Shown in pieces: positions 47,807 through 52,456 of a stretch of DNA of 64,000 nucleotides. The position numbers were made by a program, and so were the translations under genes. The first letter of the stretch is position 1. Each line of letters opens with the position of its first letter. The DNA is from Fructilactobacillus sanfranciscensis DSM 20451. Lineage in GTDB: Bacteria; Bacillota; Bacilli; Lactobacillales; Lactobacillaceae. The notes beneath the pieces were generated by a model. The model was given only the letters and a program-made list of their open reading frames with translations. It searched no databases and had not been told where the DNA came from. The stretch covers positions 62,001 to 126,000 of the forward strand of contig NZ_AYYM01000001.1 in assembly GCF_001436035.1 (NCBI RefSeq), written 5' to 3'.

Positions 47807-49648
47807 TTAACTATTTTTGTGTTTATTTTTCTTAGCTGCTTTTTCACGTTCACCAGTATTTAAGATACGTTTTCTCAAACGAACATGTTCAGGGGTTACT
47901 TCACAAAGTTCATCTTCATTTAAGAATTCAAGTGATTCTTCAAGTGTTAAATGAACTGGTGCTTTAACCTTAGCAATATCTTCAGAACCGGCAGCACGAA
48001 CGTTGGTTTGATTACGACCACGAGTGATGTTAACTGAAATATCATTGTCACGTGAGTTTTCACCAACAATCATACCTTCATAAACTTCAGTAGCTGGATC
48101 AGTAAAAATCTTACCACGATCTTGAACAGCCATAATTGCATAAGTAGTAACTTTACCAGTGTTGATTGATACTAAAGTACCATTACGACGACCTGGGTTC
48201 CAGTTTTTAACTACAGGTGCGTACTTTTCAAAAGTATGGTTCATAATTCCGTAACCATGGGTAATTGAAAGGAATTGAGTTGAGTAACCAATCAAACCAC
48301 GTGATGGAACTAAGAAAGTCATACGTGTTTGACCATTACCAACGCTTTCCATGTTTTGCATTTCACCTTTACGTTGTGAAAGTGTATCAATAATTGAACC
48401 AGAGTATTCGTCAGGAGTATCAATTTGTACAGATTCAAAAGGTTCAGATTTAACGCCATCAATAGTTTTGTAGATAACTTCAGGACGAGAAACTTGAAGT
48501 TCGAAACCTTCACGACGAAGAGTTTCAATCAAGATTGACAAATGAAGTTCACCACGACCAGAAACAACCCATGAACCTGGGTCATCAGTTTCTTCAACAC
48601 GAAGTGAAACATCAGTATGAAGTTCTCTTTCAAGACGATCAATTAATTGACGGGCAGTAACTAACTTACCTTCTTTACCAACAAATGGTGAAGTGTTAGT
48701 ACCAAAGGTCATACGCATAGTTGGTTCATCAATTCTAAGGATTGGTAGTGGTTCAAGTGAATCTGGAGAAACAACTGTTTCACCAACATTAATATCTTCC
48801 ATACCAGAAACGGCGATTAAATCACCGGCCTTAGCTTCATTAATTTCAACTTTGTTCAATCCAACAAATCCCATGATTTTTGTAACACGGAATTTTTGTT
48901 GTGAGCCGTCAAGTTTCATAACAACAACGTTGTCACCAACTTTGATTTTTCCACGGAAAACACGACCAATTCCAATACGACCAACGAAGTCATCATAATC
49001 AAGCATTGCAACTTGGAATTGTAATGGATCTTCTGAATTATCAATTGGAGCGGGAATGTTTTCTAGGATAGTATCAAAAATAGGTTTCATAGTGTGTTCT
49101 TGATCATCTAAATCAGGTGAAAGACTTGAAGTTCCATTCATAGCTGAAGCATAAACAACTGGGAATTCAAGTTGACTTTCATCTGCACCTAATTCAATAA
49201 ATAAATCAAGCACTTCATCAACAACTTCTTCAGGACGAGCACCTGGCTTATCAATCTTGTTAATTACAACAATTGGAGTTAAGTGTTGTTCCAAAGCCTT
49301 TTTCAATACGAAACGAGTTTGTGGCATTGTACCTTCAGCTGCATCAACAACTAAAAGAACACCATCAACCATTCGCATGATACGTTCAACTTCTCCACCA
49401 AAATCGGCATGTCCGGGTGTATCAAGAATGTTAATTTGTTTACCATCGTATTTAACGGCAGTATTTTTTGAAAGAATAGTAATACCACGTTCACGTTCAA
49501 TTGGATTTGAATCTAACGCACGATCTTGAATTTCATCATGACCGTCAAGGGTATCAGATTGTTTCAATAATTCATTAACCAAAGTCGTCTTACCATGATC
49601 GACATGGGCAATAATTGCAATATTTCTAATATCGTCTCTTGTTTTCAA
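47807..49648 (-). CDS. typA: Translational GTPase TypA/BipA
   Basis: Ribosome-binding GTPase of the EF-G family, linked to 50S assembly and stress or cold growth. 613 aa; G1 [10 protein letters not shown]2/G3 ERERGITI and [11 protein letters not shown]4 [14 protein letters not shown], then domains II, III, V and the BipA-specific C-terminal domain ending in a Lys-rich tail. The start is TTG 49648 behind GAGGAGG. Its leader holds an intrinsic terminator, see separate entry. Confidence 0.96.
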
Positions 49649-49803
49649 AAATGTTTCCTCCTCAAAAAGCAGTTAAAAGCTAGCAATCCAATTCTGAACT
49701 AGTAGTCAGATAAAAAAGCCGTGACACTGTCACAGCCCCATCAATACCTTGAATATTAATTTATTAATCGTTTTGCGCTCTTTTTATCGCTATAAAAACT
49801 ATA
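49649..49803 (-). promoter_or_regulatory. typA 5' leader with internal terminator
   Basis: The ~150-nt leader begins with a short AT hairpin (TTTTTAT/ATAAAAA with loop AGCG), may be closed by GAATAT/ATATTC pairing, and then runs into the terminator at 49712-49739. The only good promoter found lies upstream of that terminator, so typA expression must depend on read-through or on antitermination. No known riboswitch or T-box was recognised. Confidence 0.5.
49712..49739 (-). terminator. Intrinsic terminator in the typA leader
   Basis: Minus strand: 8-bp GC-rich stem (GCTGTGAC with GTCACGGC, one G-U pair), 3-nt loop, then T6. It lies 64 nt before the typA start codon and 68 nt after the promoter -10 box. 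It could also end transcripts coming from the UPF0223 gene. Confidence 0.85.
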
Positions 49804-49807
49804 TTCG

Positions 49808-49837
49808 ATTATAGCACTAGATTTATAAATTAGTCAA
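49808..49837 (-). promoter_or_regulatory. Promoter of typA (upstream of its leader terminator)
   Basis: Minus strand TTGACT (49832-49837), 18-bp spacer, TATAAT (49808-49813) with an extended -10 TG (TGCTATAAT). Confidence 0.75.
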
Positions 49838-49852
49838 TTGAACTAGTAACAA

Positions 49853-50149
49853 TTAGTCCATTTGTTTAATGTTTTTTGTCTTTGGATGTTCCTGAGCATT
49901 TTTTAATACTTGATAAATATCTAAATTAGAATTTTTTTCAAAATCACGACGTAAGTTATTTTGTTCAGTCCGAGCTGGATTAATTTCTTGAAACCGTCGA
50001 AAACTATCGATTAATTTTTGACGATTAACCCCATGTTCATCATAAGCTCGTTCGATATTGCGGAAAAATTCAGTTACATCAATTAATTCTTGCATTGACC
50101 AGTCTTCAACGATTGGATATGCATAATTTTGATCAGTTTTTTTTGCCAT
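49853..50149 (-). CDS. UPF0223 (YktA-type) protein
   Basis: 98-aa helical protein with the family stretch YPIVEDWSMQELIDVTEFF and YDEHGVNRQKLIDSFRRFQEI. Function unknown. It overlaps the LDH-like gene by 17 bp and is thus translated with it. Confidence 0.85.
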   Translation of the reverse strand: MAKKTDQNYAYPIVEDWSMQELIDVTEFFRNIERAYDEHGVNRQKLIDSFRRFQEINPARTEQNNLRRDFEKNSNLDIYQVLKNAQEHPKTKNIKQMD

Positions 50150-51071
50150 TTTTATTACCTTTTTTTATGTTTTCAATAATATCCATTGACCATTCAGCAT
50201 CATGAGTCAATTCTTCCTGTTCATTATCTGCTAGTTGTAAATTAATAGAACGAAAAATTCCAAATTGATTAACCAATTTGGGTCCTAAGCTCAAACTCAA
50301 TTTATCATTTTCTTTCTTTAAACTAGTAACAGAACAGATTAGAGAGTTTTCACCATAAACACATGTTAATAAACGCATCACTGCTTTGCTTTGAATCACA
50401 GAGTTAGAAACAATCTTATGATTACCAATTTGTTCACTAAAATTATTAATAATTTTATCATCATAGTTCTTACTATCATCTGCAATGTATGAAAGTAATG
50501 TTGAAGGACCAATATAAACTCTACTCCAGGCAACTAAATTGTGGGTATTGAGTCCTAGCGTATTGACGTTAATATCGTCACCGCTCACATTAAATTTTCG
50601 TACCAACGCTTCTCTTAAAATGATTTCTTGTGGAAGTGTACCCAAGCCAATAATTTTTTCAACATCTAAACCTGAAAAATAGGCAGCAAAATAAACAAAA
50701 ATTTCATCATGTGGACAGTCAATCATAATTTTACCATTAAAACCACGACTAATAATGTCATTAATTGCCATTCTAAATTGCATCAATGGCTCTCTTATAT
50801 TTTCAGCGATTGTTGAGGCATCGATAATTTCTGGATCATAGAATGGATCATCAGGTAGATAAATCATCCCATCAATTTCGCCTAACTTTGCATCTAATTC
50901 CATAACTTCAATCCGAAAGTTATGACACATTTCAGTTGCCAAAATTTCATTCGTATAAATTTCTGGATTGTCTAATAAGATAGTAACAGGCGTGTCTTTA
51001 ACTTCCATCGCACTTAAAAGATTAGAAATTCTTTGCTGATCACCTTTAATAATTATTTTAGAATTTAAAAT
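50133..51071 (-). CDS. Lactate/malate dehydrogenase-fold protein lacking catalytic residues
   Basis: Full-length homologue of the LDH/MDH superfamily, about 312 aa. Diagnostic stretches: AENIREPLMQFRMAINDIISRG before the strand KIMIDCPHDE (LDH NPVD region), SGLDVEKIIGLGT, WSRVYIG, and a C-terminal LSLGPKLVNQFGIFRSINLQLADNE matching the LDH end. The dinucleotide glycine motif is replaced by KGDQQR, and Asp168, Arg171 and His195 (LDH numbering) have no counterparts. It is probably not a dehydrogenase. The frame reaches TTG 51086, but GAGGAG lies inside it; an ATT at 51071 has ideal spacing. Confidence 0.75.
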   Translation of the reverse strand: MLNSKIIIKGDQQRISNLLSAMEVKDTPVTILLDNPEIYTNEILATEMCHNFRIEVMELDAKLGEIDGMIYLPDDPFYDPEIIDASTIAENIREPLMQFRMAINDIISRGFNGKIMIDCPHDEIFVYFAAYFSGLDVEKIIGLGTLPQEIILREALVRKFNVSGDDINVNTLGLNTHNLVAWSRVYIGPSTLLSYIADDSKNYDDKIINNFSEQIGNHKIVSNSVIQSKAVMRLLTCVYGENSLICSVTSLKKENDKLSLSLGPKLVNQFGIFRSINLQLADNEQEELTHDAEWSMDIIENIKKGNKNGKKN

Positions 51072-51162
51072 GATAACACTCCTCAAAAAGATAAATTGTA
51101 TATGTTATTATAAAATAACATTCGGTTACGAAAATGCAAACTTTTTTAATTAATTATCTCAC

Positions 51163-51191
51163 TTACAATAAATACGAAATTACCATATAAT
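51163..51191 (+). promoter_or_regulatory. Promoter of def
   Basis: TTACAA (51163-51168), 17-bp spacer, TATAAT (51186-51191), about 38 nt before the def start. Confidence 0.5.
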
Positions 51192-51228
51192 TAAATTGTA
51201 AGATTATGAAACGAATGGAGGTAATCTT

Positions 51229-51789
51229 TTGTATTTAATGAAAGATATAACTAGAGATGGAAATCCAGTTTTAAGAAAACAAGCCGAAAAAGTACAATTT
51301 CCATTAAGTGATGAAGATCGTCAGCTTGGTGAAAAAATGATGGAGTATCTTGAAGTTAGTCAAGATGATGCGTTATGTAAAAAGTATCATTTACGTGCGG
51401 GAGTTGGATTAGCTGCCCCTCAAGTTGGGGTATCAAAGCTAATGGCAGCCGTCTTAACTCCCCCAGAAGGTGATGATGAGAAATCACCATTTAAAGCAAT
51501 CATGATAAATCCTGTGATTGTTTCAAATTCTGTTCAAAGAGCTGCATTAACAGTTGGTGAAGGATGTTTATCAGTTGACCGTGATATTGAGGGATACGTT
51601 CCGCGTTCCGATAGAATTACTGTTCGCTATCAAGATTTAGAAGGTAATGAACATAAGGTACGGCTAAAACACTACCCTGCAATCATTGCACAACATGAAA
51701 TCGATCATCTTCATGGAACATTATTTTACGATCATATTGATAAAGCCAATCCATTTAGCCGCTCGGATGATGAAATTTTTATTGATTAA
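51229..51789 (+). CDS. def: Peptide deformylase
   Basis: Removes the formyl group from nascent proteins; metalloenzyme. 186 aa, type II size. Motif I GVGLAAPQ, motif II EGCLSV (metal Cys), motif III QHEIDHLHG (two metal His and catalytic Glu). TTG 51229 lies 6 nt from GGAGGT; the in-frame ATG 51238 would be 15 nt away, so TTG is preferred. Confidence 0.95.
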   Translation: MYLMKDITRDGNPVLRKQAEKVQFPLSDEDRQLGEKMMEYLEVSQDDALCKKYHLRAGVGLAAPQVGVSKLMAAVLTPPEGDDEKSPFKAIMINPVIVSNSVQRAALTVGEGCLSVDRDIEGYVPRSDRITVRYQDLEGNEHKVRLKHYPAIIAQHEIDHLHGTLFYDHIDKANPFSRSDDEIFID

Positions 51790-51793
51790 CTTA

Positions 51794-51819
51794 AAAAGAC
51801 CTACAGTTGTAGGTCTTTT
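51794..51819. terminator. Bidirectional terminator between def and the 153-aa gene
   Basis: AAAAGACCTACA and TGTAGGTCTTTT arms around GT; T-rich on the plus strand, A-rich on the other. Confidence 0.85.
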
Positions 51820-52279
51820 ATTTTTGGTCAATTTTTTTAATATCTTTAACGTATTCTTCGGTTGCATCATTTTGTTCATCAGCAACATCAAAGGTTAACA
51901 AATGATCGTTCAACCAACAATCAGTAATAATCAATTTATGTGCAATTTGCTTAATTTCATGAGGTTGTTTTGCTAAAGAACCTTCTAAAATAAATCTAAT
52001 TTTCAAAAGTTCCAAATCACTTTGAATCTGATATTTATATTCATAAACCATTACGCCCCTGCCCCAAACATCTGTAAGTACAGTAGAAGAAATGAACTGA
52101 TAAAAATTAATGTTTTGTTTTTGGGATTGCAAGTCACTTACCATTTTAAATACAACTGCATCAACATGGTCTTTATTAATTGCTTGATACTCTTTTTCTG
52201 GATTAATTACAAAAAAATGATGTAAAACACCGTAAATAAATAAGGCAACGATTATTCCAATAATTATTTCAAAAAACAT
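51818..52279 (-). CDS. Single-span membrane protein of unknown function
   Basis: 153 aa from ATG 52279 (GAAGGAG upstream); the frame to 52327 would add 16 residues before the ribosome site and is rejected. One N-terminal membrane span (about 2-23), then a soluble part with a mixed helix/strand pattern (YQFISSTVLTDVWGRGVMVYEYKYQIQ). An acidic tail follows. No known domain recognised. Confidence 0.7.
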   Translation of the reverse strand: MFFEIIIGIIVALFIYGVLHHFFVINPEKEYQAINKDHVDAVVFKMVSDLQSQKQNINFYQFISSTVLTDVWGRGVMVYEYKYQIQSDLELLKIRFILEGSLAKQPHEIKQIAHKLIITDCWLNDHLLTFDVADEQNDATEEYVKDIKKIDQK

Positions 52280-52456
52280 TTTTATTACTCCTTCATCATA
52301 ATTAATCAGTACGCTTAATACTACCATGTAACTTGATAATCGTCGAAATTGTGTATTATATACTTAAAATTTAGATTATGGTAAAATTGAAACAGTAGTC
52401 GAATTATTCGACATTAAGATCGACAAATAAAAAAGAAGCAAAAAGGAGTAATCATA

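Follow-up and report, generated by a model that had tools for sequence, protein, structure and literature searches.

The analysed window is a stretch of 64,000 nucleotides from Fructilactobacillus sanfranciscensis DSM 20451 (contig NZ_AYYM01000001.1, positions 62,001 to 126,000). On its minus strand, the gene of a protein with the fold of L-lactate dehydrogenase (LDH) overlaps a UPF0223 gene, and the pair lies between typA and the divergent gene def. The locus comprises the following features:

50133..51071, minus strand: gene of the LDH-fold pseudoenzyme, 312 amino acids with an assumed ATT start (open reading frame, LDH similarity, AlphaFold2 model and orthologue family)
51069..51071, minus strand: probable non-canonical ATT start codon of this gene (sequence; homologous ATT in the related genome L005)
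51079..51084, minus strand: GAGGAG, Shine-Dalgarno-like, 7 nt before the ATT (sequence)
49853..50149, minus strand: UPF0223 gene (PF05256, 109 bits, E 1.5e-31; nearest solved structure 2oy9, E 8.5e-18)
50133..50149, minus strand: 17 bp shared by the reading frames of both genes (open reading frame coordinates)
49715..49739, minus strand: terminator-like hairpin with T run, 11 pairs of which 5 are G-C, closing the two-gene unit before typA
51229..51789, plus strand: peptide deformylase gene def, the divergent and conserved upstream neighbour (context; open reading frame and conserved neighbourhood)
47807..49648, minus strand: typA, the conserved downstream neighbour (context; open reading frame and neighbourhood, orthologue named in L. 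plantarum)

Counted from the first TTG, the open reading frame of the pseudoenzyme covers 50133..51086 on the minus strand with 317 codons. Judged from the sequence, ATT is the probable start codon, supported by the homologue in L005 which carries ATT at the matching aligned position and no ATG, GTG or TTG in frame before codon 23. In two related species ATT is the apparent start, with a Shine-Dalgarno-like sequence 6–7 nt upstream. Starts other than ATG, GTG and TTG are rare, with infC as the textbook case, and expression of the pseudoenzyme gene could be limited by its ATT.

The 17-bp overlap given in an earlier note on this DNA is exact, and the overlapped gene is a clear member of the UPF0223 family, to which the structure 2oy9 (BH2638) belongs. 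Two such terminator-like sites were found, compared to 1.1 expected in shuffled sequences. A search of positions 49500–51400 against Rfam matched no family.

The relation to LDH was first apparent from sequence comparison, in which the matches were weak but clear and spanned residues 94–311. With phmmer the protein matched the LDH structure 4m1q (E 3e-12), and the NCBIfam L-LDH model NF000824 gave E 2.6e-15, yet only 56.5 bits at a cut-off of 339. Similarly, TIGR01771 was matched with 53.3 bits at a cut-off of 303.55. A Pfam search with the window protein returned no match, Ldh_1 included. With regard to the Ldh_1 cut-offs, the copies from the outgroup families pass or come close, the L. plantarum copy lies slightly below and the window copy gives no score, a series that reads as a graded drift of the sequences away from LDH. 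The similarity of the window protein to LDH is nevertheless far above chance.

Structure prediction with AlphaFold2 from 34 sequences gave a model with pLDDT 87.7 and pTM 0.88. Its top structural matches in the PDB are all LDHs: Foldseek found an LDH with E 2.3e-19 and TM 0.84, and VIA-align superimposed 298 residues on T-state L. casei LDH (2zqy) with Z 33.2 and an rmsd of 2.3 Å, at a sequence identity to LDHs of only about 16–19%. The predicted model thus extends the LDH/MDH fold over the whole length of the protein, as the earlier note had proposed by eye.

The residues required for LDH catalysis were then compared across 115 aligned copies of the family (102 from Lactobacillaceae, 7 from a second family, f2, and 6 from a third, f8). 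In the window protein the glycine motif reads GDQQRI, and Asp168, Arg171 and His195 are replaced by Gln, Ile and Asn, in agreement with the earlier description; in addition, Arg109 and Asn140 are lost. None of the 115 copies contains Arg109, Asn140, Arg171 or His195. Only the first glycine of the NAD motif GxGxxG is retained, while the second and third (Gly29, Gly32) are absent from all copies. Asp168 survives exclusively in the outgroups (6/7 in f2, 3/6 in f8), which indicates that catalysis was lost stepwise. His188 is present in every f8 copy. The absence of a structural match to LDH, or the occurrence of orthologues with intact catalytic residues, had been named as evidence against a non-catalytic LDH derivative; instead, the structural match is very strong and the four residues are missing throughout. 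On these residues the family can hardly be a lactate dehydrogenase.

The family has acquired conserved positions of its own. Among the Lactobacillaceae copies, Asp142 is invariant (102/102) and position 196 is deleted without exception (102/102), and across all three groups Trp203 is found in 115/115 and Arg205 in 113/115 copies. A literature search on position 205 of LDH yielded nothing useful. These invariant polar residues differ from those of LDH, and two of them are close in sequence to the former active-site positions 140 and 195. The lack of textbook residues may be compatible with some other chemistry, and a neofunctionalised enzyme could catalyse a different, perhaps cofactor-free reaction via Asp142, Arg205 and Trp203, which would neighbour the former active site. 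However, a cofactor motif is not recognisable, and a large part of the former pocket (positions 109, 140, 168, 171 and 195) is free to vary within the family, as an active site seldom is. We consider a new enzyme unlikely.

A further explanation is that the protein joins catalytic LDH as a pseudo-subunit and modulates how active the enzyme is or how it responds to fructose-1,6-bisphosphate. The full-length fold match to tetrameric LDHs of Lactobacillales would fit, and suitable partners exist, since the genome that contains the window, of 1.23 Mb in 68 contigs, encodes three other LDH-like proteins with D168, R171 and H195 intact. The low identity to LDHs argues against such an assembly, as do positions 173 and 188 of the fructose-1,6-bisphosphate site, which are not conserved among Lactobacillaceae copies, and the genomic linkage, which is to UPF0223 and not to an LDH gene. 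This explanation appears slightly less probable still than a new enzyme.

Loss of the catalytic residues alone would also be expected of a decaying LDH pseudogene. The same losses are, however, shared by all 115 orthologues, which have full-length open frames and invariant residues of their own. In close species pairs the pairwise dN/dS was 0.00–0.18, similar to UPF0223 and mostly low as for typA; single ratios are rough, as several dS values were saturated or incalculable, but they lie far below 1. Additionally, relatives are reported as protein, namely lp_2150 of L. plantarum and lmo1057, the latter detected in L. monocytogenes (PMC7880126). Decay was rejected on these grounds and has next to no probability, and the idea of the earlier note that the loss of catalysis was selected appears well supported by the purifying selection and the retained fold. 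A pseudoenzyme is defined by the lack of conserved catalytic motifs (PMC10211241), and the window protein is an enzyme-family homologue of this kind that is kept by selection. In a maximum-likelihood tree, unrooted with respect to the origin of LDH, 36 family members form a single clade split from 10 bona fide LDHs with a branch support of 100/100.

To what extent the gene occurs elsewhere was followed by single-protein and profile searches. Of 301 Lactobacillaceae genomes sampled, 86 carry a syntenic orthologue, and these represent 9 of 40 genera; named records include Lactiplantibacillus, Levilactobacillus, Secundilactobacillus and Loigolactobacillus. A scan of contigs with the single protein gave no match, while a profile from a narrower alignment did. 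The order-wide search revealed that two more Lactobacillales families, f2 and f8, have the gene. Of these, f8 may be Listeria-like, judged from the gene order lmo1057-lmo1058.

The linkage to UPF0223 is strict. In 115/115 loci UPF0223 follows the pseudoenzyme gene as the next gene downstream on that strand; no more than 76 bp separate the two, which mostly touch or overlap. Natural fusions of the two were not found in these loci, where the paired open frames overlap by up to 142 bp. All 86 pseudoenzyme-positive Lactobacillaceae genomes contain UPF0223, and the pseudoenzyme never occurs alone in the sample. The reverse does not hold: UPF0223 is widespread in Bacilli, and most of its genes and genomes have no pseudoenzyme neighbour. 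In 47 sampled Bacilli loci outside the positive group, an LDH-like gene beside UPF0223 was not observed once, so UPF0223 has no need of the pseudoenzyme. The context of UPF0223 is remodelled by lineage. In other Bacilli the gene upstream of it resembles a flavin-dependent monooxygenase (in many genomes) or Spx, or is pdhD, with names read from the sequences.

In L. plantarum (L079) the gene order is def, pdhABCD, the pseudoenzyme orthologue, UPF0223, suhB, typA. The suhB gene and the pdh operon are missing from the window locus (49649–49852 and 50150–51228), unlike in L. plantarum. The position directly downstream of the pdh operon in many species suggests a regulator of pyruvate dehydrogenase (PDH), and lp_2150, named malate/L-lactate/L-2-hydroxyisocaproate dehydrogenase, appears beside PDH subunits in a set of L. 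paraplantarum proteins that respond to phosphate (PMC10927959). In contrast, PDH E1-alpha is absent from 10/10 genomes of the window's genus, which retain the pseudoenzyme, and many pdh-bearing genomes lack it. Since PDH is missing genus-wide while the pseudoenzyme stays, the adjoining operon looks like history and not function. The pseudoenzyme is independent of PDH in this genus, and a PDH-specific role is disfavoured as improbable.

Co-evolution was considered as a further line of evidence. In a first test, the partial correlation between the pseudoenzyme and UPF0223 was 0.77 against 0.55. When an unrelated neighbour that evolves fast served as the control, UPF0223 reached a partial r of 0.44 compared to 0.63 for the control; the signal was not specific and was dropped as evidence. 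The minus strand at 51818–52327, between def and rpoY, holds another conserved neighbour. Its protein evolves fast, is hydrophobic at the N-terminus and tracks the divergence of the LDH-like protein and of UPF0223 strongly (partial r 0.63 and 0.59). The two-gene unit suggested in the earlier note stands with regard to adjacency and the terminator-like hairpin. Joint working of the two proteins would be a further step, against which stand the UPF0223 genes that in most genomes have no pseudoenzyme and the unspecific co-evolution signal.

Taken together, we favour an ancient, misannotated and non-catalytic LDH lineage that acts as a regulatory or scaffolding partner of UPF0223, with a probability of roughly one half, over a new enzyme, an LDH pseudo-subunit and a PDH regulator. 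In an ancestor shared by several families of Lactobacillales, an LDH-like gene would have stood between pdhD and UPF0223. Selection would then have retained its descendants in some nine genera of Lactobacillaceae and in two or more further families. The LDH scaffold, possibly including its dimer, would have been kept for the regulatory or scaffolding task, and Asp142, Trp203, Ser204, Arg205 and the Arg121-equivalent, all conserved anew in this family, may form a putative contact site for a protein or an anionic ligand where the active site once was. The strict linkage, the overlap and the terminator-like hairpin after UPF0223 suggest co-translation and joint function, and the pseudoenzyme is presumably translated together with UPF0223. 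The partnership itself is read from this linkage; adjacency alone proves no interaction.

Putative metabolite sensing, as brought up in the earlier note, is possible. A more far-reaching version can be offered only tentatively: the pseudoenzyme might form an obligate two-protein unit with UPF0223, as one of the ancient LDH-derived non-enzymes of Lactobacillales and Listeria-like bacteria, and sense a metabolite or scaffold a central process near the genes of RNase J, TypA and deformylase.

Confirmation would call for corrected LDH counts and metabolic models in lactic acid bacteria, as genes of the lp_2150 and lmo1057 type are named dehydrogenases in annotations and proteomics tables though the family is without the residues needed. 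In a fold that ranks among the most thoroughly studied of all enzymes, the family also shows how catalysis was lost step by step. In addition, it provides a handle on UPF0223.

The LDH fold and pseudoenzymes as a class are already known. We found no description of a bacterial LDH pseudoenzyme, which is weak evidence as the literature search was thin on subscription journals; literature treating UPF0223 together with Lactobacillus was likewise not found. Human UEVLD (UEV3) carries a C-terminal LDH domain fused to a UEV domain (PMC12513931). Here, too, an LDH-like domain stands apart from the usual metabolism of lactate, but the protein is eukaryotic and a UEV fusion, and a common origin of the change with the bacterial family is unsupported. 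UPF0223, in comparison, is a small, separate and conserved protein of unknown function that is widespread in Bacilli without the pseudoenzyme.

Compared to bacterial L-lactate dehydrogenase (TIGR01771/NF000824; Pfam Ldh_1_N, Ldh_1_C), the window protein shares the full-length fold and the GLGT, WS and C-terminal motifs, with a detectably homologous C-terminal half, and differs in the NAD glycine motif and the five catalytic positions. Two apparent family members are known under other names. L. plantarum lp_2150 (F9UQ89) lies two loci from pdhC, matching the place of the L079 orthologue, and its UniProt number, two away from that of pdhC, fits the gene order. L. monocytogenes lmo1057 is annotated as L-lactate dehydrogenase-type, and the f8 copies adjoining UPF0223 would fit the order lmo1057-lmo1058. 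Both are annotated as active enzymes in contrast to a family without the catalytic set, and judged from its residues this annotation is very probably wrong. Beyond the single locus described earlier, the pseudoenzyme belongs to an old and widespread family that is usually annotated as an active dehydrogenase.
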